Of a stretch of DNA of 64,000 nt, positions 30,536-52,961 are shown piece after piece. Made by a program: the position numbers and the translations under genes. The notes beneath the pieces were generated by a model. That model saw only the letters and a list, made by a program, of their open reading frames with translations, did no database searches and was not told the DNA's origin. This stretch comes from Polaromonas sp. Its GTDB lineage: Bacteria > Pseudomonadota > Gammaproteobacteria > Burkholderiales > Burkholderiaceae_C. The DNA lies in assembly GCA_030683705.1 (NCBI GenBank), contig JAUXPP010000031.1, positions 1 through 64,000 of the forward strand, given 5' to 3'. Each line of letters opens with the position of its first letter. The first letter of the stretch is position 1.

Positions 30536-30593
30536 ATCGACTCCGGTGTGCCTGGGTGGAAATCAGAATGCGGTGCTGTGATGCAAGGCCCGC

Positions 30594-34700: not shown

Positions 34701-35800
34701 TCCCGCAGGAACGCCGGCTCCCGCATCAACTGGGAGACCAGGTCCGCCGGGTCCTCGCGGGTTTCGCCCTCCATCGCCGCAGCCATGTCCAGCACACCGG
34801 CTTTCTGCGCCGATTCGCTGCTGTCACCCGTGAGGTAAATGCCGCGGAAAAAAAATGGCTCGTGGTACGCGCTGGGCCGCATCAACTCGTCCACATACAC
34901 CTGCAATTGCGCGCGGATCGAATCGATGCGTGATGGCAACAGGAAAAACTTGCCGGTCTCGGCGCTGACAGAATCCAGCGCAAAAAGTTCGGCGGAGGTG
35001 TCCGAGACGGTCTTGACGACACTGTCCAGCGCCTCGCCAACCCAGCCGTCCTGGTAAGTGGTGGACAGGTCGTAAGGCGAAGACCAGCCCAGGATGCCGG
35101 CCCGCATCGGCTCGGGCAAGGCCCGCGCGAAAGGCGAAAAGCCTTCAATCTGGTCACACCCGGACACCAGCACATACACGGCAAAACGCATGGCAAAGCG
35201 GTTTTGCGCCAGCCAGAGGCGGCGGTGCGCCAGCCGCGCCAGCTTCCCGAGTTCGAGCAAGGCGTCCGGGTTACTGTCGAGCAAAAGGGCCGCAGGCACG
35301 GTGATGACCACCGAGTCGAAGGGCCGCTGCGGCCGGTACTTGCGGCACAGCCCCAGAAACTCGTCCCAGGGTTTTTCGGCCGCATCTTCATCGTCCGGGG
35401 AACCCAGATAGGCTCCCTGCATGTCGATGACAATGCCCTTGTCGAAAAAATGCCAGGAAATGCCCTGGGCCGCGGCGGCAGAGGCCGCTTCCGAACTCAG
35501 GGCGCTGGCCACACCGGACTGCTCGATCGGCAGTTGGCGGTTGTCGTGGCCTTCGTTGAGAACCAGCACCCAGGGGATGCTGTAACGCTCCCCCCTGGAT
35601 GCAATATTGCCCTCGATCAGCTCGACCGCCTGGCGGAAGGAACTGCGCAGCGAGTCAAACCGGAGTTTGACAATCTTGGGGTCGCTCCCCGGCTTGACCG
35701 CAGAGCGGCGCGTCGCGAAATACAGCACCAGGCCCAGCGCAACAAGCACCAGCACGATCAGAATGCCCAGCGACGCCAGGAACAAGTTGTCTCTCAGCAT
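31733..35800 (-). CDS. tssM: T6SS membrane-complex protein TssM (IcmF), Walker A absent
   Basis: A 1355-residue inner-membrane protein of the TssJLM complex. TM segments lie at about 7-29 and near WGAVVLLGGWSVGLLVATV; the N-terminal cytoplasmic domain lies between them and the long periplasmic part binds TssJ. In the usual place of the P-loop stands PWVLVLNEGHDNRQLPIEQS, which lacks the G-x4-GK-[ST] consensus, so NTP binding is doubtful. The IcmF-related and C-terminal beta domains (PLRWEPGTPITLTLRLA, WALLRMIQ) are present. ATG 35800 follows AAAGG. Confidence 0.93.
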   Translation of the reverse strand: MLRDNLFLASLGILIVLVLVALGLVLYFATRRSAVKPGSDPKIVKLRFDSLRSSFRQAVELIEGNIASRGERYSIPWVLVLNEGHDNRQLPIEQSGVASALSSEAASAAAAQGISWHFFDKGIVIDMQGAYLGSPDDEDAAEKPWDEFLGLCRKYRPQRPFDSVVITVPAALLLDSNPDALLELGKLARLAHRRLWLAQNRFAMRFAVYVLVSGCDQIEGFSPFARALPEPMRAGILGWSSPYDLSTTYQDGWVGEALDSVVKTVSDTSAELFALDSVSAETGKFFLLPSRIDSIRAQLQVYVDELMRPSAYHEPFFFRGIYLTGDSSESAQKAGVLDMAAAMEGETREDPADLVSQLMREPAFLRDLFEKKIFMEYGVARPSRQQLSRPVLSRAARWGAVVLLGGWSVGLLVATVQLSKRNPELARALTQIETDAGYRARASERGESIPSDWYRAKTLSLLAAIEKLGTDKAWTFFMPGSWYIFDDLDERVAERIEREFGEIAINTLRRELYARAADMTGVSQDASTGELIIGGECAAPAGFLAIAGQARKSTLAVEDTAEFAALLQYLTAVERLDQAIVSMVRLQKPGPNEASDLRLLVKYTLGAELPGNISQSIRFFRGDDAPGSISPAAISVMHIQQAVRCSLGKGVVALDQRLFTNNDLLVSERELAAQTMRLFAPDARITSFSQTVGGYKAVVAAIKEQESLLASGKGGWMRQATLNLGPAYDGALTRITQSRRLLGPEPADQARQHALTEFQKFSAEFYTRFGVDGQSGIVWQEKDARFMLSADRLALRDALTGLLAQSFMTPPSDREIPEIVAQSILVWDSTKLDQALALSDAHKRFMGESLAKFPPSVRPSVAAFVNFQFARLVSDHAIDALSISGRTDPGAVADAMAFDASRGRLIKVQGLLTELGARGKADNLRSLISQDAVARLRQVDENLNQSDLYAIRGRDFSYWLGDRGPLLQAFGVTDAPGLMQTLALQFSRAETLGRQSEIYLASLDSASAESQLARRWQAINRELERYRLKNPNSSLVVYEQFLVTVGADIDRSNCSEKLAGKAPGGRPADYFAEKHLQVYNALLKRCNELRAGEQQEQWAVFSGNFNRLLAGRQPFAVPGARDAQDADFEDVGQVLKSSERMSRIFKDTAASSRSAASGQAARRFMEQFDRVRAFMAPLYPVEEGAIAGYDMAVEFRTNQSAEIEGNKVIDWTLEVGSQTLRLRDAPRPLRWEPGTPITLTLRLAKDSPVNATNDAQQLHMSADGKTVSYRFTDAWALLRMIQRQREPDPAGRADGRSQLLRMEFPMVFGADNPRLTPQEVRARVYMRVSLSPVGKRTSVFWPGVFPTRAPEFAGQ

Positions 35801-35834
35801 TGCCGGCCTTTCATGCTGGATCGGTGGAATACCT

Positions 35835-36593
35835 TCATTTGGCAGCTTCCGTTCCGGTGATGATGCCGCCCTGCAGTACCTGACGGACCGGCCACGATTG
35901 CCAGAGCCAGAGAATTTCCGAAATGGCCAGCAGACCCGCAAACCCCAGCAGGAATATCACCGTCCAGCGGCTCAGCGTCTGCATCTTTCGCGGTGCGATG
36001 TGCGACAAGGTGCTGGCATAGGCACGCTCGGACAACACCCTGTCCCTGCCCGAAAGATCGGGGCGGCGCTGGTAGACAAACTGGAACAGCTCTTCGCGGT
36101 AACCCGCAAAACGATCGGTTTCACCCGCGCCCCGGTATTTGCCCTGGAATCCCAGGGCCAGTGCCGACAGGTAGAGGCTCGCAATCGGTCGCAGCGAAGG
36201 CTCGCGGTTCGACAGCAGTTGTTCGATGCGCTCGAACACCCGTTCGCCGGCGACGCTGGTCCGGAACAGCGAAGCCTCCAACAGGTGGGCGGTCCAGCAG
36301 TCACGCCCTATCCATGGTGTGTTGAGCAATATCTCATCGGCGAGCGCGGCCTTGAGGTAGCGGGCATCGGCGATGCTCTCGAGTTCAAACCGGTTACCTT
36401 CGCGTTTGGATTCCAGAGTCTGCAGCTCGATCAGGTTTTCCAGGTGCTTGCTGACCTGCTGCGCTGCCAGGTCCGGGTCGGTCTCGCGCATCTCGATCGC
36501 GCGCAATTGCGCCTTCGAAACCTCATCGAAAAAGGCGCGGAATTGCTTGATCAGATGATCGTCGTCCAGCTTGTCCCGGTTTTGGCGTGCCAT
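35835..36593 (-). CDS. tssL: T6SS membrane-complex protein TssL (DotU)
   Basis: A 252-residue inner-membrane protein of the short TssL type: a cytoplasmic helical DotU domain (LIKQFRAFFDEVSKAQLRAI, DARYLKAALADEILLNTPW) and a single C-terminal membrane segment (WTVIFLLGFAGLLAISEILWL, about 212-232), with no OmpA-like peptidoglycan-binding extension. It partners TssM. The start ATG at 36593 is preceded by AGGAG; an earlier ATG would add an atypical arginine-rich lead. Confidence 0.93.
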   Translation of the reverse strand: MARQNRDKLDDDHLIKQFRAFFDEVSKAQLRAIEMRETDPDLAAQQVSKHLENLIELQTLESKREGNRFELESIADARYLKAALADEILLNTPWIGRDCWTAHLLEASLFRTSVAGERVFERIEQLLSNREPSLRPIASLYLSALALGFQGKYRGAGETDRFAGYREELFQFVYQRRPDLSGRDRVLSERAYASTLSHIAPRKMQTLSRWTVIFLLGFAGLLAISEILWLWQSWPVRQVLQGGIITGTEAAK

Positions 36594-36615
36594 GTCGTGT
36601 TGACTCCTGTGAGCC

Positions 36616-37944
36616 TCAGCCCTTGACGAAAAGAACCATTTCCTGCGGACGCTGCGCGGAAGCACTCTCCGTGGAATTGCTGACAATCAGGGGCTCATTT
36701 GCCAGCGTCAGTGCGGCGCTGATCTGAATCGAAAACAGCGTGTAGCCCGAGCTGGCGCGCACGCCCAGCTCCTCGGCCACCTCGATGTGTGAACGCTGGG
36801 CGCCAAGCACACGACGTTCCCGCAACGAGGCGTAAGCCGACTGGGAACCGACAATGGCGCCGTTCATCCAGGCAATCAGGTCTTTTTCCGGCTGCCCACG
36901 CATCCCCACCACCAGTTGCCTGTCCACCCACTCCGGTTGCAGCGTGATTTCGAATGCCCCGTGGCGGTATTCAAATTTATGCTCGCGATACTCCTGGCTG
37001 ATTTCCTGCAACGAGTCCTGCAATGCCTCCAGAACGGGATTGAGCACCGACAGCGGATCGGCGTGGTTGTATTCCGGCGGGACCGGCGGCAGCGCGCCCG
37101 GCTTGAGCATGCTGAGCGGCCCAAGCAAGCCGCAAAGTGCCAGATAGAGGGCATAGGGATGCAAGCTGGGCGTGCGTAATACCGCCTCGATCTGCGGCAA
37201 ACCGGTCATCAGGTTGCGCAGGCGCTCTCTTTGTTCCAGGTAGGCCAGCCGGTCTTCGGCCTTGGAGGAGGGCACAGCGGTCTGTTTGGCCACGAAAGCC
37301 GCCTTGCCGCGCAACTGCCCGGCGAAAGCCGACACACGCTCCCACAGTTCGCCGTCCTTGGGCATCTCGATAAGAGGCGGGAGCGTGCTCCCCATCTTGA
37401 TGAGTTCGTTGTCCTTGAACACCGTTCCCAGCCGCAGCCAGGTGTACAGGCCCGAAGGCACTTTTCCCGCCGTCAGCGACAGGTTGGGCAGGAGGCGCGG
37501 AACATCAGCCGGCAGGGCCTCGGAAACCTCGTCTTCCACCTGATTGCTCGCCACCGACCGGAAACGGGCCGGCGAACTCTTGTCACGCATGCTCCGGGTC
37601 AGGGGCAGGATCAGGTAGACGTCCAGAGGACCGTTGCCCAAGGCCTCGGAAAAAGGCGCAAGGCCGAGTTCCAGCCCACCGTGCAAGGCGTTGTCGGCCC
37701 TATGGCTGACGGAGGTGCCATCCGGCATGATGGCCTCGAGCTCGAGCACCCGGACAATCCCGGCCGGCAAAAGTCCCGTGTCGAACTTCAGGCTGCGAAT
37801 ACCCCATGAGAAGGGCGCAGCCAGCAGCGTATGCCAGGCCACCAGGGAATCCAGCCTGGAAGAAGCCTGCTGGAAATGTTGCGGGGACAGCAGCATGCCT
37901 TCATGCCACTGAATGCGATCTTCAACAGTCAACGACTTAGACAT
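36616..37944 (-). CDS. tssK: T6SS baseplate protein TssK
   Basis: TssK forms trimers that join the baseplate wedges to the TssJLM membrane complex. The 442-residue protein opens SKSLTVEDRIQWHEGMLLSP followed by QHFQQ, the family signature. The shoulder and head domains follow, with the motif YALYLALCGLLG and the C-terminal LFSIQISAALTLANEPLIV region. The ATG at 37944 has AAGGGG about 7 nt upstream; the nearby ATG at 37950 is too close to it. Confidence 0.94.
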   Translation of the reverse strand: MSKSLTVEDRIQWHEGMLLSPQHFQQASSRLDSLVAWHTLLAAPFSWGIRSLKFDTGLLPAGIVRVLELEAIMPDGTSVSHRADNALHGGLELGLAPFSEALGNGPLDVYLILPLTRSMRDKSSPARFRSVASNQVEDEVSEALPADVPRLLPNLSLTAGKVPSGLYTWLRLGTVFKDNELIKMGSTLPPLIEMPKDGELWERVSAFAGQLRGKAAFVAKQTAVPSSKAEDRLAYLEQRERLRNLMTGLPQIEAVLRTPSLHPYALYLALCGLLGPLSMLKPGALPPVPPEYNHADPLSVLNPVLEALQDSLQEISQEYREHKFEYRHGAFEITLQPEWVDRQLVVGMRGQPEKDLIAWMNGAIVGSQSAYASLRERRVLGAQRSHIEVAEELGVRASSGYTLFSIQISAALTLANEPLIVSNSTESASAQRPQEMVLFVKG

Positions 37945-38028
37945 GGACATACCCCTTGTGGCCATGGCTGCGGACCATGTTCTGCGAGAAATGAATCATG
38001 GGATGTTTTTTCATGGGCGTTCCCGGAT

Positions 38029-38529
38029 TTATTCGCTCTTCTGGGCAGAAACAGAAAAAGAGCGTGCGCCAAGCTGCACCAGGATGTCTCCTTGCATCTG
38101 GTCCACACGCACCCGATGTTCACCCGGTGTCAGGTAATCTGCAAAAAGTATCACCCCCACCAGGCGCGACGCGCCGAACGCGCTTGCCGGAAGCTTCAGC
38201 GTCTGGCTGGGTGCAATCTCCACACTCTGGTAACTCAGGCCTTCAGGAAAGGTCTTGGCCAGATCGGCCCGGGAAGAAAACCATTTGGACGCCGACAAGG
38301 CGGACACCATGCCCAGCGTGGCATCGTCGCGCAGCAGCACCACATCCAGAGCGACAGGGGTATTCAGGTTGGCCCCTTCGGAAGCAACGACGGTGACGCC
38401 TTTCCAGTCCAGGCGGCTGCCCTTGACGGTGAAGAAATCACCCACGCTGTTGAGCACACCCAGGGCACCACAGGCCGACAGGCTTCCCAGAGCTATTCCG
38501 ATCAGGCAAATTTTCAGAAATTTCATCAT
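38029..38529 (-). CDS. tssJ: T6SS outer-membrane lipoprotein TssJ
   Basis: A 166-residue lipoprotein with signal peptide about 1-19 and lipobox LSAC, which is lipidated at Cys20. The mature transthyretin-like beta sandwich is typical: LNTPVALDVVLLRD, ASKWFSSRADLAKTFPEGLS and ADYLTPGEHRVRVDQM. It binds the periplasmic part of TssM. tssK follows 84 nt downstream. On its other side it abuts (4 nt) the first symporter gene, showing that the amino-acid module and the tss genes share one transcript. Confidence 0.92.
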   Translation of the reverse strand: MMKFLKICLIGIALGSLSACGALGVLNSVGDFFTVKGSRLDWKGVTVVASEGANLNTPVALDVVLLRDDATLGMVSALSASKWFSSRADLAKTFPEGLSYQSVEIAPSQTLKLPASAFGASRLVGVILFADYLTPGEHRVRVDQMQGDILVQLGARSFSVSAQKSE

Positions 38530-38533
38530 CTTC

Positions 38534-40009
38534 TTAAACAGTCGGGTACCCGGGTATCAGCAGGCCCATGGCATGCGGTCGAATGGGGACAGCTTCGCCT
38601 TTGCGCATGCCGACACCCACACCCGCAATCGTAATCAATATCGAGACCAGCAGGACACAGGCAAGCACCAACAGCAAGCTGGCCCTGGAAAAAACAAAAC
38701 GGACCGGCTGCAATGCGCCGACCTCTGTGGGTGTGGCCGCCTCGACACGTTCCGAAGGCAGGCCCCTGGACACCAGGACAATCAGTACGCAGGCAAACAA
38801 CAAGGTCAGCAGGTTGCGTGGTCCTTCGCAAACCAGGTCGATCGCCAGGAAAAGGGCCAGCGCGGCCTCGACAGGCAGCTTGAGCATGGTGAGCACAATG
38901 CTGGCAAATCCGACAGCGGCAAGGCTGTTGTTGCCGGCAGAGGCAAACGCGGCCATGGAGGCGCCGACACAAATCACCAGGAATTCCTCGGCAGCGACAG
39001 GCCGTCCATAAATATTGGCTACAAAAATCGCGAGCAATGCGAAGTAGAGTGCCGCGCCTGAGCGCATGAAAACAGAAGAGATCGGGATCACCAGCTCCGC
39101 GATCCCCCGACTGAAACCCAGCCGGGAACTCATGGCCTCTATCGTGTCGGGAATGGTCGCCGTTGTGCTGGCCGATGTCAGGCTGATCAGGGCCGGCGTC
39201 TTCAATGCCGAAAGAACCACGCCGGGAGGGAGGCCCGACTTCTTCCAGATCAGCGCTGTGGCCAGGGCAGACAGGGCGAAAGCAAAAACGAAGAACCACG
39301 CCAGAAAACTGCCCATGGCATGTACTGTCCGGGCTTCCGTATTCGCCACGAAATACGCAGCCATCCCGAAGGCCAGCACGGGAATGAACATGTTGACGCG
39401 CGAAATGATCAACTCCAGCGCCCGGTAAATGGCCTCGAATATTCCCATCAATGAATTGCTTTGCGCCTTCATCAATGCGGCGAACGCCAGCCCGAAAAGA
39501 ATGGCGCACAGCAATATGCCCAGGGATTGCCCCTCCGCCAGTGCCCGGAAGAAGTTGTCCGGCACCAGCGCCCACTGCTCCGCTTCCGGCTCGGTCGCGG
39601 CCCCGGCGCCGTACAGGGAAATTTCGGCGTTAGCCGCATCGCCGCCGGCACCTTGCACCAGCGTTCCGAGGTACTCACGGCTGGACGGGCTCAAATTCTG
39701 GCCAGGCCCGGCCAGGACGCCCAAAACCGCACCCAGGACAGCACAAAGAACCACCAGCCCGATCGCCAGGGCCACAATCATGAGAGTCCGCCGGCCAGGC
39801 TGCGGTAATGACAAGGTCTGGCGCAAACCAAAAAAAGTGGCGACCACGAGCAATGGCAGGGCAGCCATATTCACCAGGGCCAGATAAATCTGTCCCAGGA
39901 TGAAGGCCTGACTCCCCCATGACGGCGCCAGCCAGCCCACCAGCCCGCCCCCCAGCACACACAGGAGAAGAGCCAGCGGGCTGTTCGACAGGCGCTTCAG
40001 GAGTCCCAT
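38534..40009 (-). CDS. Divergent dicarboxylate/amino acid:cation symporter (DAACS)
   Basis: A 491-residue membrane transporter of the GltP/DctA family with eight main helices and re-entrant loops. The family hallmark serine-rich motif is present as SASTTATIPDTIEAMSSRLG, and AASMAAFASAGNNSLAAVGF-type loops follow. The last family motif (usually D-x3-DMxRTxxNVxGD) is altered to AIDLVCEGPRNLLTLLF, so substrate or cation binding may differ. A Gly/Ala-rich extra loop near residues 115-150 and a hydrophobic C-terminal extension make it longer than DctA. It overlaps the racemase gene by 13 nt. ATG 40009 is chosen over GTG 40024. Confidence 0.85.
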   Translation of the reverse strand: MGLLKRLSNSPLALLLCVLGGGLVGWLAPSWGSQAFILGQIYLALVNMAALPLLVVATFFGLRQTLSLPQPGRRTLMIVALAIGLVVLCAVLGAVLGVLAGPGQNLSPSSREYLGTLVQGAGGDAANAEISLYGAGAATEPEAEQWALVPDNFFRALAEGQSLGILLCAILFGLAFAALMKAQSNSLMGIFEAIYRALELIISRVNMFIPVLAFGMAAYFVANTEARTVHAMGSFLAWFFVFAFALSALATALIWKKSGLPPGVVLSALKTPALISLTSASTTATIPDTIEAMSSRLGFSRGIAELVIPISSVFMRSGAALYFALLAIFVANIYGRPVAAEEFLVICVGASMAAFASAGNNSLAAVGFASIVLTMLKLPVEAALALFLAIDLVCEGPRNLLTLLFACVLIVLVSRGLPSERVEAATPTEVGALQPVRFVFSRASLLLVLACVLLVSILITIAGVGVGMRKGEAVPIRPHAMGLLIPGYPTV

Positions 40010-40713
40010 CCGGTCCGGTTCCACCCTCTGGCCAGGGCAAAGGCAACGCTGGCCCGGGCCAGTTCCAGAGAGCTGTCGATCAGGGCCAGGCCCGATACGT
40101 CGGCCTCTCTGCTTGCAATGGGGATCTCTGTACAGCCCATGATGAGCGTCGTGGCTCCCTGGCCCGCAGCATCCTGACAGGCCCTCGAAAGATGTTGCGC
40201 GCCGCCGGCCAGGTTGCCTGCCTTGACCTCACGAATGCAGGCGTCCACCTGGATCTGCGTGCCATCCGGATCGGGAATCATGAATTGAATGCCACGCGCA
40301 TCGAGCTCGCGCTGGTAAAACCCCGACGCCAACGCACCCCGCGTCGCAAAAATGGCCACACGATCGGTCCCCGACGACGCAATCGCCTCCACGCAGGCCT
40401 TCGCGATGTGCAGGAGCGGGACCTTGCTGCAGCGGCTCATCTCGTCAAACCAGTGATGCGACGAGTTGCACGGTATGGCGATCACACCGACGTCGGCACG
40501 ATTGAGCATCTCGATACCCGCCAGCAACTGCGGGAGTGGATCCCGCCCGCGACCCAGGATGGCGCTGGAGCGATCATGGATATGCGGCAGGCTGGCGACA
40601 ATCACCGGCAGATGATCCTGGTCGCGAGAGGCAGGCGTGAGCTTGACGAGCTTGTCCAGAAAGTCGACCGTCGCTGACGGCCCCATTCCCCCAAAAACGC
40701 CAATGCGCGACAT
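39997..40713 (-). CDS. Aspartate/glutamate racemase family protein
   Basis: A 238-residue PLP-independent racemase. The N-terminus MSRIGVFGGMGPSATVDFLD is the family start, the first catalytic Cys lies in VIAIPCNSSHHWF and the second in LIMGCTEIPI, both intact. Family members interconvert L- and D-Asp or L- and D-Glu or act on related amino acids. The gene lies between two amino acid symporters inside the T6SS operon, which suggests it processes an amino acid that they import. AGGGGA precedes the ATG at 40713. Exact substrate unknown. Confidence 0.9.
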   Translation of the reverse strand: MSRIGVFGGMGPSATVDFLDKLVKLTPASRDQDHLPVIVASLPHIHDRSSAILGRGRDPLPQLLAGIEMLNRADVGVIAIPCNSSHHWFDEMSRCSKVPLLHIAKACVEAIASSGTDRVAIFATRGALASGFYQRELDARGIQFMIPDPDGTQIQVDACIREVKAGNLAGGAQHLSRACQDAAGQGATTLIMGCTEIPIASREADVSGLALIDSSLELARASVAFALARGWNRTGWDS

Positions 40714-40721
40714 GCCGTCCC

Positions 40722-41999
40722 CTAGATCTTTAACGGCCGGGGGCAGATCAGCGACACTGCGGCGTTGTTGCCAATCACCAGCACAAGCGTCCGCAGCATG
40801 TCGCAGATCGGGTCCACCGCGAGGAACAGGATAAATGCCGCCTCGAACGGCAGTCCAAGGTAACTGCAGGTCAAACCGACCAGTGAAACCGTCAGCAGGC
40901 CGGTCATGCCCGCAGAGGCAAATCCGGCGAGGATGGACGCAGAAAGAATCACGGCCAGTTCTGTGATTCCAAGCGGTTTGCCATACAACTGCGCGATAAA
41001 CACGGTGGCAGCCACGTAATAAATGACGGGTCCGATTCTCAACAGCGAGACACTCAGCGGCACCATCAACTCGACGCGGGAGCGCGCGAACCCCAGGCGA
41101 TCGGCGAGGCTCTCTATCATGATGGGCATGCAGGTTGCACTGCTCCGGGTGGCAAGCGCCAGGGCAAACGGTCCGCGCAGGGCGTTCAGGGTCTGGCCAA
41201 GTGTCGAATTTGAACGCTTCCAGATGATGATCGTGGCGATGACCAGCGCCAGCAGGGAGGCCACGAAGAAGGCAAGGACAAACTGCGCCATCGCCTGTAG
41301 CGGCCCAATGCCGGTCTTGGCCATCTGGGCCGCACTCATGCAAAAGAGAATCACCGGCAAGGGGTAGTTCAGCCAGCGCATCAAGGTCTGGCACGAGTGA
41401 TAAATGGTTTCCAGCGATTGCGTCAGTCCGTCGGAAACGCGCGAGGGCACCTGCCCCACGGCGAAGCCGAACAGCAGCGCAAAAACCAGGGCCTTGAGTG
41501 TGTCACCGCTTGCAAGGGCGGCAAAGATGTTGGAAGGCACCAGGCTCACCAGCACCTCCGTAAAACTGACCGACTTGACGGGTGCATCCACACCCTGCAG
41601 GCTCATCACCGTGTCGCTGGAGTTCAGGTCGTTACCAACGATCTTGCCAAATGTCTGCATGGTTTCCGTCGAGAGGTTTTCGCCCGGCTTCATCACCAGC
41701 AGCGTCAGCGCCCCCAGCAACGCGACCACCACGGAGAACACGGCGAAAACCACGGCTACACGCGCCATCAGGCCGCCGGCGCCGCCTTCGCGGAACAGGC
41801 GTTGCAGGCTGAAGATGACCGCTGACACCATGAAAGGCAAGGCAATCATCTTGAGCAGATCGACATAGACATCGCCTACAAAACCGAGCTTGAGGCCAAG
41901 CGCCGGCATGTACATGCCAAGCATGAAGCCGGCTGACAGGCTGGCGATCACCACCCAGGGATTGAGCGCAAACGCATATACAGTTTTTAGATTGATCAT
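40722..41999 (-). CDS. Dicarboxylate/amino acid:cation symporter (DAACS)
   Basis: A 425-residue GltP/DctA-type symporter. The serine-rich motif RSSATCMPIMIESLADRLG and the substrate/cation motif FLAVDPICDMLRTLVLVIGNN (canonical D-x3-DMxRT-x-NVxG) are both recognisable, so it is probably active for acidic amino acids or C4-dicarboxylates. It lies 8 nt upstream of the racemase gene and 20 nt downstream of the binding-protein gene. The two symporters of this cluster are paralogues that have diverged considerably. Confidence 0.88.
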   Translation of the reverse strand: MINLKTVYAFALNPWVVIASLSAGFMLGMYMPALGLKLGFVGDVYVDLLKMIALPFMVSAVIFSLQRLFREGGAGGLMARVAVVFAVFSVVVALLGALTLLVMKPGENLSTETMQTFGKIVGNDLNSSDTVMSLQGVDAPVKSVSFTEVLVSLVPSNIFAALASGDTLKALVFALLFGFAVGQVPSRVSDGLTQSLETIYHSCQTLMRWLNYPLPVILFCMSAAQMAKTGIGPLQAMAQFVLAFFVASLLALVIATIIIWKRSNSTLGQTLNALRGPFALALATRSSATCMPIMIESLADRLGFARSRVELMVPLSVSLLRIGPVIYYVAATVFIAQLYGKPLGITELAVILSASILAGFASAGMTGLLTVSLVGLTCSYLGLPFEAAFILFLAVDPICDMLRTLVLVIGNNAAVSLICPRPLKI

Positions 42000-42019
42000 C
42001 GCGTACCTTGGTTAATCAA

Positions 42020-42967
42020 CTACTTGTCCAGCGCCTTGAGAACCTTGTCGATGGTCAGTTTTTCCGAGCTTTCGGACAGGAACTGGTTGACGTAGGCCAG
42101 CAAGGTCGGGTCCTGGATGCCAACGGCAATGCCAAGCGTGTCCTCCAGATCCTTGAAGGTCACCGTGCGCAGGGTGAGCGATGCCGTCGGATCACTTTTC
42201 AAGATGCGTTTGATCTCGAATTCATCCCGATAGGCCGCCATGATCTGGCCCTTTTCAAGCGCTTTGAGTACGGCGTCCCAAGTGGGGAACTCGCGGAGCT
42301 CAGACAGCGGAAAATTCTTGCTGGCGTAATCGGAAAAGGACGACTTCGCAATGACGCCGATCGAACCCTTGAACTCCCGCACCACGAGGGGCAGAGGCCG
42401 GTCGCGGGCAAGCTCGGCAAACTTCACCCGGTTCAGGATGAAGGCATGATTCAGGCGGATATACGGATCCGTGAAACTGATCATCTGTGCGCGCGCCAGC
42501 GTTCGGGACAACTTGCTGATGCCCAAATCTGCCTCCTGCCGTGCCACGATATCCACGACCTCGTTGAAGGTCCGGGCACTCCGGTCAAACCTGACATTGA
42601 CCTTGAGCTCCTTGGCGATCGCCTTGGCAAGGTCGACCTCCAGGCCCACCAGTTCGCCCTTCTTCATGTAGAAAAAGGGCGGCGTGTCCACGCCGAGCAT
42701 GGCAACAACGAGTTCGCCCCGGTTGACAATGCGGGCGATGTCGGGGGCCAGCAGGCGGCCATCGGTGACTTTGACAAGGGTCGAAGTCGGCACGGGAACG
42801 ACCGGCGGACTGGCTTCCACCGCCGGGGCCTTCACAGGACCCGCCGGCGCGGGCCCTGCCGCAATTGCCATGCTTGAGCCTGCGAGACAGCCCAGTGCCA
42901 GGAGAAAGTTGCTTGCCCCCTTGCCCGCCAGGCGATAGAAATGTTGTGCGTACTGTTTGTATGACAT
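42020..42967 (-). CDS. Periplasmic amino-acid-binding protein (SBP_bac_3)
   Basis: A 315-residue exported solute-binding protein. Signal peptide about 1-36 (ASNFLLALGCLAGSSMAIAA), a Pro/Ala-rich linker to about residue 70, then the type 3 binding fold: GELVVAMLGVDTPPFFYMKK, LVGLEVDLAKAIAKELKVNV, DLGISKLSRTLARAQMISFT, and the second-lobe helices. No ABC permease or ATPase is nearby, so it may serve the symporters or sense amino acids. ATG 42967 is 6 nt after AGGA; the preceding ATG 42970 is possible. Confidence 0.88.
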   Translation of the reverse strand: MSYKQYAQHFYRLAGKGASNFLLALGCLAGSSMAIAAGPAPAGPVKAPAVEASPPVVPVPTSTLVKVTDGRLLAPDIARIVNRGELVVAMLGVDTPPFFYMKKGELVGLEVDLAKAIAKELKVNVRFDRSARTFNEVVDIVARQEADLGISKLSRTLARAQMISFTDPYIRLNHAFILNRVKFAELARDRPLPLVVREFKGSIGVIAKSSFSDYASKNFPLSELREFPTWDAVLKALEKGQIMAAYRDEFEIKRILKSDPTASLTLRTVTFKDLEDTLGIAVGIQDPTLLAYVNQFLSESSEKLTIDKVLKALDK

Positions 42968-42980
42968 CATCAATCCTGAT

Positions 42981-43208
42981 TCATGGTTTTGCCGCGGCCG
43001 GTGCAGAGGGGGCATCGGCAGGTGCCACAGGCGCTGCAGAAGCCGGCGCCGAAGGTATCGCAAGCGCGGCAGGCACGATCCCATCGGCAGGTACTGAGAG
43101 CCGCTTGCCGATCTCGACCCCCAGTAAAAAAAGAAGCACGCAGAGCAACAGAAGGCACAGCCCCGCGATCGTCATCATTCGGGTTGTCAGCGATAAAGTG
43201 TATTGCAT
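42981..43208 (-). CDS. Small single-pass membrane protein with Pro/Ala-rich tail
   Basis: A 75-residue protein: N-terminal TM helix (MMTIAGLCLLLLCVLLFLLG, about 11-30), then GVEIGKRLS and a periplasm-facing tail of Ala and Pro (about 45-75). No known domain. The gene sits between the DUF4280 gene (18 nt) and the binding-protein gene (13 nt) on the T6SS strand, and the codon pattern is consistent with coding. It could tether an envelope component; the function is unknown. Confidence 0.65.
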   Translation of the reverse strand: MQYTLSLTTRMMTIAGLCLLLLCVLLFLLGVEIGKRLSVPADGIVPAALAIPSAPASAAPVAPADAPSAPAAAKP

Positions 43209-43226: not shown

Positions 43227-43613
43227 TTACGGAACCATGACGGTGAACTGGCCGGGCGCAAGAATCTGGATCACGCCACCCCACTGACACATCAGTTTTG
43301 ACGAGTTCTGCAAGCTGGGCATGCCGCCGACCATGACCGTCGGCGCCCCGGGCATCCAGGGCGCAGAAGTCACGGGGATACATGGCATGGGCGTGAGCAC
43401 CCCGAGGGCGGCTGCTGTCGCCGCAGCCACCATAGGATTGGACGGGCAGTTGCACATGCCAAACGGCAGAATATTGAGCATGGGCACGTGGTCCATGATG
43501 TTGGCAGCGGGCCCGCCCGTCATCGTCCGGTTCACGGGAAGCACCGTCAGGACACCGGGCGCCACGCCGAAACTGCATTGAAGGGTTGCGCCGACAGCGA
43601 CCTGGATTCCCAT
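43227..43613 (-). CDS. DUF4280 PAAR-like spike-tip protein
   Basis: A 128-residue PAAR-like protein. The family pattern is clear: VAVGATLQCSFG, VNRTMTGGPAANIMDHVPML, CNCPSNPMVAAAT, PMPCIPVTSAPWMPGAPTV and the C-terminal LMCQWGGVIQILAPGQ. Four conserved cysteines could bind metal at a cone tip. There is no extra C-terminal toxin domain, so it is a structural tip rather than an evolved effector. It lies downstream of vgrG and the YwqK-type gene, and no classical PAAR protein is present in the locus, so it probably fills that role. Confidence 0.85.
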   Translation of the reverse strand: MGIQVAVGATLQCSFGVAPGVLTVLPVNRTMTGGPAANIMDHVPMLNILPFGMCNCPSNPMVAAATAAALGVLTPMPCIPVTSAPWMPGAPTVMVGGMPSLQNSSKLMCQWGGVIQILAPGQFTVMVP

Positions 43614-43615: not shown

Positions 43616-44356
43616 TCAGCCCTTCACCAGTTTTTCGAGTCGTTTCATCAGGCCCTTTTGCGCATCCTCACCGCGAAGCTCCGCCCCTTTGCTGTCGAAA
43701 CGCCGCGGCTTGCCAACCGGTTTGCCGGCACGGTACACCAGGACTTCCATCACCTGACCGTCCGGCCAGTATCGCGTCAAGGTCCCGTCGAGCAGGTTGG
43801 CTCTGTAGTTCGCACGCTGCACCACTGCGCCATCGCGGTCGTAGTCACAGGTTTCCCCCTCCATCAGGCCCTTGCGGTAAGTCGACCGGCGGACAACGCC
43901 TCCTTCATTCAGGAAAAGCGTTTCTCCCTCGACCTCGCCCCTGAAGAAATGCTGCTTCATCGTGACATCACCGGCCTCCGAATAGGCAGTCGCCTCGCCA
44001 TGCAGACGCCCGGCCGAAAAGTGCTGCTCCGACAACAACCTGCCGCCGGCAAACACGCGGGTCAGCCCCTGTTGCACGCCGCGGACGTAGGCAACTTCCT
44101 GAACCGGGCTTCCGTCGTCGTCAAACAGCCTGAGCACACCATGAAGCTCACCGGTGTCGTAAGGTGCCAGTGCGACAAGCGTCCCGCCAGGACCAAATGA
44201 CCGCATGTCGCCGTGCAGGAGACCGTTGGCGAAAACGGCGCTGCCGACCAGATTGCCGGCGTCATCGAACTGCTCCACCAGCCCCTCCGGAGCCTCAGCG
44301 CCCGTTGCGCCGGTCCCGGCGACCGGCAAGGAGGATGGGTCTTTCATTGCGCCCAT
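43616..44356 (-). CDS. YwqK/MORN-variant repeat protein
   Basis: A 246-residue soluble protein made of about eight tandem beta-hairpin repeats of 20-23 residues resembling MORN variants (for example ANGLLHGDMRSFGPGG, DTGELHGVLRLFDDDG, FRGEVEGETLFLNEGG, YRKGLMEGETCDYDRDG). The YwqK group includes antitoxin-like and vgrG-linked proteins. The gene starts 1 nt after the vgrG stop and ends 2 nt before the DUF4280 gene, so it is likely an adaptor or immunity-like protein for the spike. It has no signal peptide. Confidence 0.75.
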   Translation of the reverse strand: MGAMKDPSSLPVAGTGATGAEAPEGLVEQFDDAGNLVGSAVFANGLLHGDMRSFGPGGTLVALAPYDTGELHGVLRLFDDDGSPVQEVAYVRGVQQGLTRVFAGGRLLSEQHFSAGRLHGEATAYSEAGDVTMKQHFFRGEVEGETLFLNEGGVVRRSTYRKGLMEGETCDYDRDGAVVQRANYRANLLDGTLTRYWPDGQVMEVLVYRAGKPVGKPRRFDSKGAELRGEDAQKGLMKRLEKLVKG

Positions 44357-44357: not shown

Positions 44358-46349
44358 TCAGTTGATCTTCACCAGACCACCCTTGAGGGTCAACATACCG
44401 CCGCCGTCCACGGTCTGCATGGCGGAGGCCTTGTTCGTCACCATGGCTCCCTCATTGTCCAGCGTGGTCCCCGCCTTGTTCTTGAGTCCTGTCCCCGCCT
44501 GGTTGGTCAGGTCCAGGCCAGCCTTGTTGGTCAGGGACGTGCCCGCCTCATTGGTCAGGGCCGTTCCCGCCTTGCTGGTCAGGGCCGTCCCCGCCTCGGA
44601 TTTGAGGGTCGTTCCGGATTTGATACTGATGGAGCCGGTCACGTCGATCACCAGGTTACCGGTGACTTTCAGTTCATAGTTGCCAGTGACCGCCTGCTTG
44701 AAATCGGCTTGATTGGTATGGGTTTCATTGCCGGTCACCGTCAACTCGCGTGTGCCTTTGACCTTGTGGATTTCCTTGCCAGTCTGCACATCCACCGTGC
44801 GGTCACCTTTTTCCAGCGTATGGGTTTCGGAGCCCTTGACCAGCTTGGTGCTTAAGTCATTTTCGATCTCGATCTTCATGTCCTTCTGCGCATGAAAGTA
44901 AAACTCCTCGGCATCTTTCTTGTCTTCCATGCGCATTTCATTACCCGCCGCGCCCTGCTTGGAGGAGCGCGATTTGATCGTGCTTTGCGTCTGCATGCCC
45001 GGAAGCGTCACCGGAGGGGTGTTTTCCGCGTTGTAGACACAGCCCGTGACCAGAGGCCGGTCAGGATCGCCGTCGACATAACTGACGACGACTTCCTGTC
45101 CAATACGCGGCAAAAACAGGCTGCCCCATCCCAGCCCGGCCCACGACTGCGAGACGCGAACCCAGCAAGAGCTGTTTTCGTCCTTGACGCCCAGCCGGTC
45201 CCAATGGAACTGCACCTTGATCCGTCCATGTTTGTCGGTCCAGATCTCTTCCCCACTGGGTCCCACGACCAGCGCCGTCTGGCTACCCGAGACCCGGGGC
45301 AACAAGGCCACGCGGGGCGGCCGGAACGGTGTGGTGGCCGGAAACGCTTCAAATGCGTTGCTGTACTGGTCGTTGCTGGCCGCGTGGGTGACAGCGCGCA
45401 GGACCAGCGAGGTGTTCAGGGCGGTCCGCGAATGCCCGGACAGGGTGAATTTTTTGCCGGCCGACAGCGGATAGCAGTAACTGGTCCCCCGGCAGACCGC
45501 GCCATCCACCTGGCTGGCCTCGGAACGGACCTTGGCCCGCTGGGTGCCGTCGGCGACAACGGCATGTTTGCCCGGGTACTCGAACTGCTTGCCTTTTCCC
45601 GTCGCCCCTGCCGATTCGGTCTTCAGCGCCGTACTCGGCGTGAGGTAGTTGTAGTCGCTGTATTCGAATTTTTGCGCTACCAGCCGGCTCTCGTATTCCA
45701 GTTGGTTGACCGCATCGATCACGCGCCTTCCGCCCTCGTCGGGGAAATAACGCAAGGCGGCCGCGTCCGCACAATCCGTATGGGCGGAGGAGCTGTCCCC
45801 CAGCACCATGGTGTGGCCGCCATTTCTGAATGTGAAGAAATAGAAGATTCCCTCCTCCTCCATGAGGCGGGATATGAATTCCAGCGCCGTCTCGTCGTAC
45901 TGAACACAGTATTCGCGGCTGCCATAGGTTCCGGTCAACTGCGCATCGAAAGTCACGCCGAACTCGCCAAGCACCGCCTTGATGATGTCGGCGGCCGTCT
46001 TGTTCTGGTAGATCACCCGGTCCCGGCTCAAGGTCAGCAGCCAGAGGCTGGGCACCAGTTCTGCCGAATAGGACGAAAACGCCTTGTCGCCACCCGCATG
46101 CATGAAGCGCGACACGATGCCATTGAAATACCGGACCGGTCCGGCGGGCAGGGCAAACTTGACCGTGACCGATGCACCAATGATCAGCGCGGGGTCCAGC
46201 CCCGTGTTTGCCGAACGCATGGACAGGGAAAACTTGAAGGGCTGCGATATCGCCTCCACACCCTGAAAGTGATCCAGCAGCAACTCATCCGCACCGAACG
46301 GGGTCGTCACCGTCAAGGTCGAGTTGGTCTGCTTGTAACCGGTCCGCAT
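44358..46349 (-). CDS. vgrG: T6SS spike protein VgrG (TssI)
   Basis: A 663-residue VgrG trimer subunit. The N-terminal gp27-like region (LTVTTPFGADELLLDHFQGV, YCVQYDETALEFISRLMEEE) and the gp5 OB-fold (IKVQFHWDRLG, CWVRVSQSWAGLGWGSLFLP, IGQEVVVSYVDGDPDRP) are standard. The C-terminal needle has seven perfect-length 8-residue repeats (residues 578-633, AGTALTNE-type) coded by a 24-bp tandem array. There is no added effector domain. It is followed by its likely adaptor (YwqK type) and tip (DUF4280). Confidence 0.95.
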   Translation of the reverse strand: MRTGYKQTNSTLTVTTPFGADELLLDHFQGVEAISQPFKFSLSMRSANTGLDPALIIGASVTVKFALPAGPVRYFNGIVSRFMHAGGDKAFSSYSAELVPSLWLLTLSRDRVIYQNKTAADIIKAVLGEFGVTFDAQLTGTYGSREYCVQYDETALEFISRLMEEEGIFYFFTFRNGGHTMVLGDSSSAHTDCADAAALRYFPDEGGRRVIDAVNQLEYESRLVAQKFEYSDYNYLTPSTALKTESAGATGKGKQFEYPGKHAVVADGTQRAKVRSEASQVDGAVCRGTSYCYPLSAGKKFTLSGHSRTALNTSLVLRAVTHAASNDQYSNAFEAFPATTPFRPPRVALLPRVSGSQTALVVGPSGEEIWTDKHGRIKVQFHWDRLGVKDENSSCWVRVSQSWAGLGWGSLFLPRIGQEVVVSYVDGDPDRPLVTGCVYNAENTPPVTLPGMQTQSTIKSRSSKQGAAGNEMRMEDKKDAEEFYFHAQKDMKIEIENDLSTKLVKGSETHTLEKGDRTVDVQTGKEIHKVKGTRELTVTGNETHTNQADFKQAVTGNYELKVTGNLVIDVTGSISIKSGTTLKSEAGTALTSKAGTALTNEAGTSLTNKAGLDLTNQAGTGLKNKAGTTLDNEGAMVTNKASAMQTVDGGGMLTLKGGLVKIN
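44451..44618 (-). repeat. 24-bp tandem repeat in the vgrG needle region
   Basis: Seven 24-bp units encoding AGT-x-LT-x-x octapeptides (SGTTLKSE, AGTALTSK, AGTALTNE, AGTSLTNK, AGLDLTNQ, AGTGLKNK, AGTTLDNE). Each octamer makes one step of the triple-stranded beta-helix, so unit number would set the needle length. Confidence 0.85.
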
Positions 46350-46355: not shown

Positions 46356-49073
46356 TTACTGCTGCTTGGGCGGGGCGAACGTGAATGAAAAATCATCGTT
46401 CGCATCCACGCCCATGTGCACCGCGCCAAAAGGATCGGACATGGAAATTTTTTCCAGCACCTGCCGGGAGAGTTCCGGGAGTACGGCATGCGACAGGATG
46501 TGGTCGACGTTGCGCGCACCGCTATCAACTTCAGTGCATCGCGCCGTGATGGTCTGGGCGACCTCGTCGTCCCATGTGAACAAGGCCTTGTGGTTGCGTG
46601 AGAATCGCTGCGCGAGCTTGCCGAGTTTCAGGGTGACAATCGAGCGGATCTGCTCGTCACCCAGCGGGTAATAAGGCACAAGGGCAAGACGCCCGAGGAA
46701 AGCCGGCGAAAACTGTTTCGTCAGCACCGGCCGGAGCTGTTCGATCAGTACTTCCGGGTCGGGGCGGCGCCCCCCTTCGCACGCATCGGTGATGACGTCC
46801 TGGGCAGCATTGGACGTCAACAGGATCAGGGTGTTCTTGAAGTCGATCTGCACCCCTTCACCATCCTCCATCACACCTTTGTCAAAGACCTGGAAAAACA
46901 GCTCCAGCACATCAGGGTGCGCCTTTTCCATTTCGTCCAGCAACACCACGCTGTAGGGCCGGCGCCGCACAGCCTCGGTCAGCACCCCGCCCCGGCCATA
47001 CCCCACGTATCCCGGAGGCGCCCCCTTCAGGCTGGAGACGGTGTGCGCTTCCTGGAATTCAGACATGTTGACCGTGACCATGTTGCGGTCTCCGCCGTAG
47101 ATCATGTCGGCCAGCGCAAAGGCCGTCTCCGTCTTGCCGACGCCGCTCGGGCCGACCAGCATGAAGACTCCGACCGGCTTGCCCGGGTCATCGAGGTCCG
47201 CCCGCGATGTCCTGACCCGCCGGGCGATGGCATCGAGGGCCTGGTCCTGCCCAACCACCCGCTCCGCCAGTTTTTCCTTGAGATTCAGCACGGTGTGCAA
47301 CTCGTCCGCCAGCATCTTCCCCACAGGAATCCCGGTCCAGCCTGAAATCACCGACGCAACCACGCCGGAATCCACGCAGACCGGAATCATGGGTTCATCG
47401 CTCTGGATGGCATCCAGTCCCCGTTCCAGCCGATTCAGGGAGGCAGCCAGGTCTTCCCTGTCTTCACCTTCGAGTCCCGCACCGTCCTCGCCCAGGCTGT
47501 CCGCGATGCGTTTGCGCAAGGCCACGATTTCAGCAACCGCGCTCTTTTCCTCCTCCAGCTTTTCCGTCAAGCGGCGTTTGCGCTGCTGAAGTCTTTCCAG
47601 CTCCAGCGCCAGAGCCGTGATGGCAGGGCCGTGCTCACGGCCGGTTGCCGACTCATGCCGGTAAATGCGCAACTGGCTTTCTGCATTGGAAATTTCCCGC
47701 GTCGTGGACTCGATTTCGGGCGGCACGCCGTTCTGTCCGATCGCCACCCGTGCACACGCGGTATCGAGCACACTGATGGCTTTGTCGGGAAGCTGGCGAC
47801 CGGATATGTAGCGATGCGAAAGCTTGACGGCGTCCCTGACGGCATCGTCGATGATCTCCACGCCATGGTGCTTCTCCAGCGTCTTCACCATACCGCGCAA
47901 CATGTCGACAGCGACATCTTCGGAGGGTTCGTCCACCTTGACCACCTGGAAGCGCCGGGCCAGCGCCGGGTCACGTTCGACATACTTCTTGTATTCGGCC
48001 CAGGTTGTGGCTGCAATCGTTCGCAACTCGCCGCGGGCCAGCGCGGGCTTGAGCAGGTTGGCCGCGTCACCCTGGCCTTCGGCACCGCCCGCTCCGATCA
48101 GCTGGTGGGCTTCGTCGATGAACAATATCACCGGCACCAGCGAAGCCTTGACTTCGGCAATCACGGATTTCAAGCGGTTTTCAAATTCTCCCTTGACGCC
48201 GGCGCCGGCCTGGAGCAACGCCAGATCCAGGGAACGAACCGAGACCTTCTGCAACGCCGGCGGCACGTCCCCCTGGACCACGCGCTGGGCAAAGCCTTCC
48301 ACAACGGCGGTTTTGCCGACACCGGCCTCGCCGGTCAAGATGGGATTGTTCTGCCGGCGCCTGAGCAGGACATCGATGATCTGCCGGATCTCCGAGTCGC
48401 GCCCCCGGATCGGGTCAATTTTCCCTTGTCTCGCCTGCTCCGTCATGTCCACGGTGTAGAGGTCCAACGAAGGATGAGAAGACGCGCCGCGACGCATGGT
48501 GGGCATTTGCAGCGATGGCGCCTCTGCTCCGGCTGAACCCGTCCCGGTTTGCCCGCCCGCGTGGACCGGTGCGCTGGACCGCACTGCGCCGCCAGCATCT
48601 TCGGCCGAGCTTGCCAGCACATCCGCCAGATTCTTGCGCAGGCTTTCGCGTGGTATCTGAAGAAGACCCGGTGCCGACTCGATCAAGGCACCCCGAAGGC
48701 TGTCGACCTCGAGCAGAGCCAGTACCAGCGTCCCGGACCGGACCTGCTGTTCGCCCAAGAGCATGGAACTGAGCAACCATGCCTCCTGGAACAGCGGGGC
48801 CAGATGCGGCGAAAGTGCGGGCGTGCGCCCATTTCCACGCTTGAAGCGATCCATCGCCTCCTGCAACTGGGCCAGGATGACGTCCATCTTGATGTCATAT
48901 TCCGGCAGGATCAGGCAGACATCCGGGGCTTCGGTTTCTATGAGCTTGAACAGCAGGTGTTCGACATCCACGTTGTAGTGGGTTTGCTGAACGCACAGCT
49001 CCGCGGCCTTTTCGAGCGCCCTCTTGCATTCCGGATTCAGCTTGCCGAGCAATGTGCGAATGTCTATTTCCAT
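46356..49073 (-). CDS. clpV: T6SS sheath-recycling ATPase ClpV (TssH)
   Basis: A 905-residue ClpB-type AAA+ disaggregase that unfolds contracted TssBC sheath. The N-terminal double Clp domain (LLGKLNPECKRALEKAAELC) is typical of ClpV, followed by AAA-1 (Walker A TGEAGVGKTAVVEG, Walker B VILFIDEAHQL), a middle coiled-coil domain (about 440-550), and AAA-2 (Walker A VGPSGVGKTETAF, Walker B YSVVLLDEMEKAHPDVL). It lies 17 nt downstream of tssG and 6 nt upstream of vgrG. Confidence 0.96.
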   Translation of the reverse strand: MEIDIRTLLGKLNPECKRALEKAAELCVQQTHYNVDVEHLLFKLIETEAPDVCLILPEYDIKMDVILAQLQEAMDRFKRGNGRTPALSPHLAPLFQEAWLLSSMLLGEQQVRSGTLVLALLEVDSLRGALIESAPGLLQIPRESLRKNLADVLASSAEDAGGAVRSSAPVHAGGQTGTGSAGAEAPSLQMPTMRRGASSHPSLDLYTVDMTEQARQGKIDPIRGRDSEIRQIIDVLLRRRQNNPILTGEAGVGKTAVVEGFAQRVVQGDVPPALQKVSVRSLDLALLQAGAGVKGEFENRLKSVIAEVKASLVPVILFIDEAHQLIGAGGAEGQGDAANLLKPALARGELRTIAATTWAEYKKYVERDPALARRFQVVKVDEPSEDVAVDMLRGMVKTLEKHHGVEIIDDAVRDAVKLSHRYISGRQLPDKAISVLDTACARVAIGQNGVPPEIESTTREISNAESQLRIYRHESATGREHGPAITALALELERLQQRKRRLTEKLEEEKSAVAEIVALRKRIADSLGEDGAGLEGEDREDLAASLNRLERGLDAIQSDEPMIPVCVDSGVVASVISGWTGIPVGKMLADELHTVLNLKEKLAERVVGQDQALDAIARRVRTSRADLDDPGKPVGVFMLVGPSGVGKTETAFALADMIYGGDRNMVTVNMSEFQEAHTVSSLKGAPPGYVGYGRGGVLTEAVRRRPYSVVLLDEMEKAHPDVLELFFQVFDKGVMEDGEGVQIDFKNTLILLTSNAAQDVITDACEGGRRPDPEVLIEQLRPVLTKQFSPAFLGRLALVPYYPLGDEQIRSIVTLKLGKLAQRFSRNHKALFTWDDEVAQTITARCTEVDSGARNVDHILSHAVLPELSRQVLEKISMSDPFGAVHMGVDANDDFSFTFAPPKQQ

Positions 49074-49090
49074 GTTTCTTGCCGTTTCGG

Positions 49091-51864: not shown

Positions 51865-51866
51865 GT

Positions 51867-52328: not shown

Positions 52329-52382
52329 GATGGCTTCTTCCCCCTAACGGAGCGGCTGACATCGGTGAAGATGCACGATGTA

Positions 52383-52871: not shown

Positions 52872-52901
52872 GAATCACTCCGTAGATAAAACCATGTAAC
52901 G

Positions 52902-52939
52902 GGGGCCCGGGCAAACTGACCGGGCCCCGCTTTTTTTTT
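52902..52939. terminator. Strong GC hairpin with T-tract between tssC and hcp
   Basis: GGGGCCCGG (52902-52910) pairs perfectly with CCGGGCCCC (52920-52928) around a 9-nt loop; nine T residues follow at 52931-52939 on the plus strand. As a terminator it would act on plus-strand (antisense) transcription. On the sense mRNA the hairpin follows an A-tract, so it may also protect the 5' end of a processed hcp message. Confidence 0.6.
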
Positions 52940-52961
52940 GACTAGCGAACCATGCCCCGCA

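Follow-up and report, generated by a model that had tools for sequence, protein, structure and literature searches.

Why do genes for amino-acid binding, transport, and racemization stand in the middle of an operon for a type VI secretion system (T6SS)? The question is raised by a 64,000-nucleotide (nt) stretch of Polaromonas sp. DNA (GenBank assembly GCA_030683705.1, contig JAUXPP010000031.1, positions 1 to 64,000; hereafter the window), in which a substrate-binding protein (SBP), two members of the SDF symporter family (SdfA and SdfB), and a racemase are encoded on the minus strand, flanked by the VgrG/PAAR genes and tssJ/tssK. The reading we favor, at a probability of about 0.48, is that these genes specify an amino-acid receptor/exchanger unit that SdfB couples to the T6SS, with sensing as the probable purpose.

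Conservation of the module within one T6SS lineage

Open reading frames (ORFs), Pfam matches, and spacing confirmed the tight, same-strand arrangement between the spike genes and tssJ that a first-pass annotation of the sequence had described. The SBP gene (42020..42970, minus strand, with a start at 42970 or 42967; SBP_bac_3, PF00497, E = 1.6e-19; signal-like N terminus) is followed after 20 nt by sdfA (40722..41999; SLC1/DAACS family, SDF, PF00375, E = 3.2e-60) and, after another 8 nt, by the gene for a racemase of the pyridoxal phosphate (PLP)-independent Asp/Glu type (39997..40713; Asp_Glu_race, PF01177, E = 6.5e-41). The latter overlaps by 13 nt with the gene for the SDF paralogue SdfB (38534..40009; E = 1.4e-48), which lies 4 or 7 nt from tssJ, depending on which of two ATGs is used. 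The complete minus-strand order is tssB, tssC, hcp, tssE, tssF, tssG, clpV, vgrG, MORN, PAAR, a small ORF, SBP, sdfA, racemase, sdfB, tssJ, tssK, tssL, tssM, and tssA. Between positions 38000 and 43700, no sigma-70-like site was seen on the minus strand and a separate module promoter was rejected; the single promoter-like site there is on the plus strand (shuffles, 1.2). Terminator-like signals numbered 15 in this interval, compared to 6.4 in shuffled sequence, but because they lie mostly within genes we did not take the excess as meaningful.

To place this arrangement among other genomes, we scanned GTDB contigs for SdfA, confirming 108 relatives and obtaining 80 of these as SdfA loci, all 80 of which were compared with 20 window proteins. 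Because its patterns were drawn from SdfA, the scan was blind to T6SS loci that lack SdfA. Sixty-eight loci were of the T6SS type, comprising 66 that show other T6SS genes and two short contigs (L052 and L065) that carry SdfB; the remaining 12 were called stand-alone. The first-pass annotation had suggested seeking the module order elsewhere, and across all 66 loci showing T6SS genes both order and strand were identical, with 57 loci spanning vgrG to tssK. The 80 loci come from Polaromonas, Ramlibacter, Variovorax, Paraburkholderia, Caballeronia, Trinickia, Achromobacter, Bordetella, Derxia, Massilia, Duganella, and other genera, and a relative from the window's own genus (G025) has the same operon. 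One contig in the set (L035), labeled as an Akkermansia muciniphila metagenome-assembled genome, carries a Burkholderiales-type T6SS; the label is probably a binning error. One further arrangement was found in genome G022 (L160), where SBP-SdfA-SdfB follows tssM on the opposite strand, together with a formyltransferase-like gene. The module therefore holds a fixed operon place across lineages, as a T6SS accessory component would, with L160 arranged otherwise. Chance insertion was the outcome envisaged by the annotation had the module been missing from all relatives with this T6SS and under its own promoter. It is rejected because order and strand are fixed; the module occurs in relatives, and the minus strand showed no promoter-like site. 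Judging from gene order, we conclude that the module belongs to this T6SS lineage as a conserved part.

The individual genes differ in how strictly they are kept. A match to the SBP adjoins SdfA in 80 of 80 loci (partial in L085). SdfB is present in 65 of the 68 T6SS-type loci, the other three (L034, L041, and L079) lying on contigs that end before its place, and it was found in 0 of 10 stand-alone loci with its place visible (the contigs of L089 and L103 stop at SdfA or within it). The racemase occurs in 49 of 68 T6SS-type loci, is absent from 17 with a visible place (the L041 and L079 contigs end before it), and occurs in 6 of 12 stand-alone loci; we rejected it as the conserved core and regard it as optional. 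Five loci with racemase matches in other genomes (L013 to L017) were extended and compared, and showed no other window gene.

In broader genome samples, SdfA matched 3 of 300 order-level genomes including the window's own (E 1e-40), and its profile matched 7 of 398 phylum-level genomes (E 1e-60). TssK (E 1e-60) matched five of the 300 order-level genomes, three with SdfA and two without (G183 and G311; TssK identity, 40 and 35%). These two have vgrG, MORN, PAAR, tssJ, and tssK in the same order, with no module in their T6SS loci. Among 61 relatives, all three genomes with a TssK match (G000, G025, and G022) have SdfA, and of the five with an SdfA match, G017 and G011 had no TssK match. Among 321 class-level genomes, TssK matched the window's own genome only.

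Loss of the cation motif in both symporters

Residue conservation was assessed in a final alignment of 162 SDF proteins: 70 SdfA of T6SS loci (including those of the window and L160), 64 SdfB, 11 stand-alone copies, 5 distant copies, and 12 other SDFs of the same genomes, chosen with no motif filter. The contig that appears as both L101 and L162 was counted once. Length cutoffs removed 1 of 80 SdfA (L103), 3 of 65 SdfB (L033, L050, and L065), 1 of 55 racemases (L034), and 1 of 80 SBPs (L085) from the respective sets. Positions are given in what we take to be GltPh numbering, with alignments made to solved structures.

The module symporters match the Pfam family and fold of GltPh, GltTk, and EAAT (SLC1, DAACS) but differ from them in having lost the NMDGT cation/substrate motif of transmembrane helix 7 (TM7) and gained a basic residue. 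NMDGT is replaced by L-R-I-G-P in the window's SdfA (R321) and by M-R-S-G-A in SdfB, so that the annotation's claim of only one symporter without the canonical motif does not hold. At the position of GltPh D312, Asp occurs in 0 of 150 clade members and in 11 of the 12 other SDFs. The position of M311 is Arg or Lys in 69/70 T6SS SdfA, 64/64 SdfB, 11/11 stand-alone, and 4/5 distant copies, compared to 0/12 other SDFs. The TM8 substrate site is kept in SdfA (D390, 70/70; R397, 70/70; T398, 69/70); in SdfB, R397 is present in 60/64 and T398 is replaced by Asn in 55/64. In the tree, the 150 clade members group together (support, 0.82), SdfB is monophyletic (1.0), and SdfA with the stand-alone copies is monophyletic (0.87), the latter copies falling at several places inside the SdfA tree.

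Because a fixed basic residue replaces the cation motif, SdfA is probably not driven by cations; it would more probably be a Na+-independent exchanger or a substrate-gated receptor. A comparable principle comes from DASS-E exchangers such as LaINDY, where, in the available part of one report, basic side chains at former Na+ sites are proposed to accompany exchange, with Arg/His as Na+ surrogates (PMC7553777); these belong to another transporter family and have the principle alone in common. The closest solved structures to SdfB include 9bh0, an ancestral uncoupled aspartate transporter. We rejected this as evidence for the same mechanism, since its relatives 9bgz and 9bgy keep NMDGT.

SdfB is confined to T6SS-type loci and shares a helix with a small membrane protein

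Between PAAR and the SBP lies a gene for a 75-residue membrane protein with a single helix and a Pro/Ala-rich tail (42981..43208, minus strand), which matched no Pfam or NCBIfam family and was missing from the first-pass annotation. A hidden Markov model (HMM) of this protein, built from 52 loci, matched (E < 1e-4) in 62 of the 62 T6SS loci whose PAAR-SBP interval can be seen, these 52 included. Weak matches were also found directly before tssJ in the module-less T6SS loci L163 (E = 0.028) and L164 (E = 0.0065), and the small protein is apparently ancestral to this T6SS lineage.

SdfB carries an extra C-terminal helix that is homologous to this protein (residues 435 to 471; 38597..38707, minus strand). 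Profile-profile comparison aligned 37 columns (P = 8.9e-6; probability, 83%), and the C-terminal piece of SdfB alone matched the small-protein profile at P = 1.7e-8 (95%). The score of 35.2 exceeded the maximum of 22.4 in 200 column shuffles, and comparison of the small-protein profile with SdfA, TssL, TssM, TssK, TssJ, the SBP, and ClpV gave scores of at most 16.2. In the AlphaFold model of SdfB (predicted local distance difference test [pLDDT], 80.8), residues 442 to 471 form a separate helix outside the part covered by SLC1 structures. The position directly before tssJ is held by the small gene in the module-less T6SS and by the last helix of SdfB in the window. Most simply, SdfB would have originated when an SDF gene was fused to a copy of the small gene, the opposite direction also being possible. 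A transporter-like protein with lost motifs is a good candidate for the sensor or accessory that the annotation suggested.

Could the module instead sit in the T6SS operon for its expression, with no functional tie, and SdfB be a decaying duplicate? Stand-alone copies in 12 of 80 loci would fit, as would the faster evolution of SdfB relative to SdfA (ratio of nonsynonymous to synonymous substitution rates [dN/dS] versus G025, 0.110 and 0.023). However, the SdfB value is close to that of tssM (0.089), order and strand do not vary across the loci showing T6SS genes, and SdfB, lacking at the sites without the T6SS, carries a helix of the T6SS. We consider a mere passenger unlikely.

The SBP-SdfA unit persists where the T6SS is missing

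We compared the window with stand-alone loci at the nucleotide level. L029 matches the window at 57750-63998 (the side with tRNA-Phe, regulator, and kinase), then at 39997-42786, and then at 21003-28510 in pieces. L027 (P. eurypsychrophila) matches over 68 bp at the tRNA-Phe end (57706-57773), where no tRNA was predicted, then at 39993-43236, and then at 19782-28512 in pieces. L031 (39997-42778, then 20608-28510 in pieces) and L103 (57706-63998 in pieces, and 41337-43042 up to the contig end) each retain one flank. At the same chromosomal site, L029 thus lacks both T6SS arms, and so, with less certainty, does L027.

TssK was found in 3 of 10 searched genomes of stand-alone loci (those of L037, L088, and L106) and not in the genomes of L027, L029, L031, and L103, three of which are metagenome assemblies of unstated completeness. 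The small-protein profile had no significant match in these four loci (best E, 2.2); by eye, L029, L031, and L027 hold short start-like peptides that diverge or break, and L103 holds none. In L027, L029, and L031, the SBP, SdfA, and racemase all have open reading frames. Comparing these loci and the window in pairs, dN/dS, which is rough given dS of 0.83 to 1.74, was 0.051 to 0.075 for the SBP, 0.027 to 0.096 for SdfA, and 0.102 to 0.153 for the racemase. The three genes are, by these ratios, under purifying selection where the T6SS is missing. Against the T6SS-bearing G025, the values are 0.087 for the SBP, 0.023 for SdfA (the lowest of ten genes), and 0.081 for the racemase, so that SdfA and the racemase may be somewhat relaxed at T6SS-less sites. 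We infer that the T6SS was lost and the unit kept at these sites; the reverse history, with an older unit around which the T6SS was built up, would take two insertions.

The flank at 57706-63998 carries genes for tRNA-Phe, a response regulator, a histidine kinase, DUF4390, and RsmB, with the kinase/regulator pair at 57845-60900, past tRNA-Phe. Because the same flank stands beside the stand-alone module in L029 and L103, the T6SS itself adjoins a tRNA gene. The neighboring kinase, a chromosomal flank retained in both loci, was rejected as a partner of the T6SS module.

Other stand-alone units have varied neighbors. In G371, and likewise in L117, two SBP-SDF pairs lie tail to tail and adjoin adenylate-cyclase-domain and GAF-HD proteins, and in L106 the neighboring protein has an adenylate-cyclase domain and, below the cutoff, a dCache match; the cyclase-domain neighbors in L117 and L106 would fit a signaling role. 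Units in L088, L093, and L105 stand beside genes for a TPR-secretin, an NMT1_3 binding protein, and a pentapeptide-repeat protein, which may belong to a second envelope machine served by this receptor unit, and L089 stands beside an outer-membrane efflux protein. SBP-SDF-racemase neighbors also occur in more distant Pseudomonadota (G592 and G389; 35 to 43% identity). In G000, G025, and G371, the only SDF-family genes found were those of the module or its pairs.

On this evidence SBP-SdfA, with or without the racemase, is autonomous and separable from the T6SS. Because the unit stands alone in some loci and is kept in genomes without TssK, it cannot serve the T6SS alone. The annotation's assignment of the whole module to the T6SS finds support in the conserved order and, as stated, none in SBP-SdfA-racemase, which is separable.

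Ligand, racemase, and formyltransferase-like gene

The SBP has the fold and both site residues of a family-3 amino-acid binding protein. Its AlphaFold model (pLDDT, 84.6) has AncCDT-1 (5t0w) as the best PDB match, and R160 (83/83) and D249 (80/83), which we take to be the alpha-carboxylate Arg and the alpha-amino Asp, align with the 5t0w ligand-site region. R156 (80/83) and R248 (82/83) are also conserved; they fit, and do not prove, an acidic side chain of the ligand.

The racemase keeps the Cys pair expected of its family (C82, 57/57; C194, 56/57) and matches PDB 1jfl (9.2e-41); no signal peptide was seen by eye. The window protein also passes the NCBIfam cutoff for the cysteate racemase CuyB (NF052483; 225.3 bits, cutoff 190), and has two catalytic Cys in common with CuyB and aspartate racemase. 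CuyB interconverts L- and D-cysteate, according to the accessible part of its description (PMC11382572). Because the CuyB cutoff is passed, Asp/Glu is not settled as the substrate; the annotation's "aspartate/glutamate racemase" stands as to family and both Cys, and the enzyme is missing from a part of the T6SS-type loci.

Where the racemase is lacking, another enzyme gene is often seen. With at most 10 kb visible per side, a formyltransferase-like gene was counted in 9 of the 17 T6SS-type loci whose racemase place is visible and empty, in 4 of 12 stand-alone loci, and in 0 of 49 racemase-bearing T6SS-type loci. It follows tssM in T6SS clusters (L160:7197-7847; L026:4226-4867; L091, L092, L094, L095, L097, L098, L099, L100, and L104) and precedes the SBP in stand-alone L093, L101, L105, and L106. 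Asn, His, and Asp residues agree with those of sugar formyltransferase in the alignment and are presumably catalytic. Because the SdfA of these loci lie in one clade of 15 rows, the swap may have been a single event.

These data bear on the suggestion that the unit scavenges acidic or sulfonated amino acids, for example from lysed prey, the racemase making an unusual enantiomer usable and the link to the T6SS being one of co-expression only. Amino-acid binding residues in the SBP, R397 and T398 in SdfA, and the racemase Cys pair are all kept, the unit is retained without the T6SS, and the CuyB match suggests use of cysteate. Because the cation motif is lost in 150/150 copies, however, concentrative import is doubtful, and with both symporters altered, cation-driven scavenging is not the default reading. 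This explanation also leaves SdfB, its T6SS-only distribution, and its helix unaccounted for, and the racemase is optional. We regard scavenging as a doubtful account.

A role in self-protection or cell-wall editing would have D-acidic amino acids moved to the periplasm, to be built into peptidoglycan or to weaken T6SS effectors in some other way. A lysine racemase beside an Acinetobacter T6SS has reportedly been linked to peptidoglycan editing, and an exchanger with a racemase could export a D-form. Yet the racemase is PLP-independent and of the Asp/Glu type, without a visible signal peptide, and is absent where its place can be seen in 17 T6SS-type loci; moreover, the module is kept in four genomes without TssK. 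We hold such a role to be very unlikely.

Other features of the T6SS locus

All other features of the operon are likewise on the minus strand. Upstream of the small gene lie genes for a PAAR-like spike tip (43227..43613; NCBIfam IglG PAAR-like, E = 7.8e-18, under the cutoff of that model), a MORN_2 (YwqK-like) protein (43616..44356; PF07661, E = 3.3e-14), and VgrG (44358..46349; PF05954, E = 1.2e-88), and then clpV, tssG, tssF, tssE, hcp, tssC, and tssB (46356..55055; Pfam). The MORN gene is the fastest evolving of ten genes compared with G025 (dN/dS, 0.21), as an effector or immunity gene might be. On the other side, a TssJ-like lipoprotein (38029..38529) was recognized by its position before tssK; it had no Pfam or NCBIfam match and has homologues in 61 of 80 loci. 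The region 28616..37965 holds tssK, tssL, tssM, and tssA (PF05936, PF09850, PF14331, and PF06812) and, beyond tssA, a gene for a 639-residue protein (28616-30535) without a Pfam or NCBIfam match. Because it is missing from the T6SS-less sites L027 and L029, its product is perhaps T6SS linked. A phospholipase A1 (PLA1) gene (27214-28512, plus strand) is convergent with the T6SS end, and its DNA persists in L027 without the T6SS.

Discussion

In the mechanism we propose, the SBP would be a periplasmic receptor for a small acidic amino acid, whether aspartate, glutamate, or cysteate, and SdfA would be its membrane partner of the SLC1 fold. The racemase, where present, would interconvert this ligand inside the cell. 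In one T6SS lineage, this unit and SdfB lie together, with the apparently ancestral gene for the small membrane protein on one side and tssJ on the other. SdfB would then be the adapter that ties this unit to the membrane complex of the T6SS, via the helix homologous to the small protein, and ligand occupancy would most likely set T6SS assembly or firing.

A partial precedent is the C4-dicarboxylate sensor of Bacillus subtilis, in which, in the part of the account available, an SDF transporter and an accessory co-receptor (DctB) jointly serve as a sensor (DctA/DctB/DctS; PMC6978683). The pairing of an SDF with a periplasmic co-receptor was found in all 80 of our loci (the SBP match in L085 being partial). 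The output differs: a histidine kinase there and, as proposed, the T6SS here. Pfam detected no histidine kinase among the operon genes of the window, the one locus that this search covered.

The module order itself was already reported for T6SS-b of Paraburkholderia phymatum (Bphy_5986-5992: YwqK, PAAR, a small hypothetical protein, an amino-acid transporter component, SDF, racemase, and SDF), where it was called intriguing and, to those authors' knowledge, new; relatives were listed, one of them without the racemase (PMC8356804). As far as the accessible text of that report goes, it reads the SDF pair as dicarboxylate symporters, maybe sensing plant dicarboxylates, and makes no mention of the Arg substitution, of SdfB as a protein seen only with the T6SS, of the helix it shares, or of stand-alone copies and loss of the T6SS (PMC8356804). 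What our analysis adds is the separable unit, the restriction of SdfB to the T6SS, the motif loss in both symporters, the shared helix, and the T6SS-less sites. T6SS-b has been linked to competition, according to the available part of another study (PMC5732942). No title announcing a functional study of the module was found in the literature searched, which covered subscription journals thinly and was judged mostly by titles.

Several observations weigh against a sensing unit coupled to the T6SS. According to the available text on T6SS-b of P. phymatum, promoter activity peaked with citrate and was low in glutamate, and with malate and aspartate it is described as constitutive (PMC8356804); these expression data give acidic amino acids no support as a transcriptional signal and do not touch post-translational gating. 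The unit persists without the T6SS, so control of the T6SS would not be its only role. The basic residue is missing in L090 (Gln; 1 of 70 SdfA) and in L118 (Pro; SBP not visible). Finally, the shared helix is the sole ground for inferring contact between SdfB and the T6SS, and it matched weakly in a plain HMM search (best E, 0.13 in SdfB; a TssL stretch, 0.16).

Tentatively, the locus can be taken one step further, as a transporter turned T6SS signal transducer: SBP-SdfA would read an extracellular amino acid, helix-docked SdfB would relay occupancy to the T6SS membrane complex and gate firing, and an exchangeable enzyme, the racemase or, in one clade, the formyltransferase-like protein, would make or erase the signal.

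The decision to fire a T6SS is open for many lineages, and the module is a defined candidate with a T6SS-only adapter. Natural strains without the T6SS and the adapter have kept the receptor, and the SLC1-family clade with a basic residue in place of the cation motif may consist of Na+-independent exchangers or receptors. In the Burkholderiales from soil, water, and plants that carry the module, the T6SS may be wired to an amino-acid signal.

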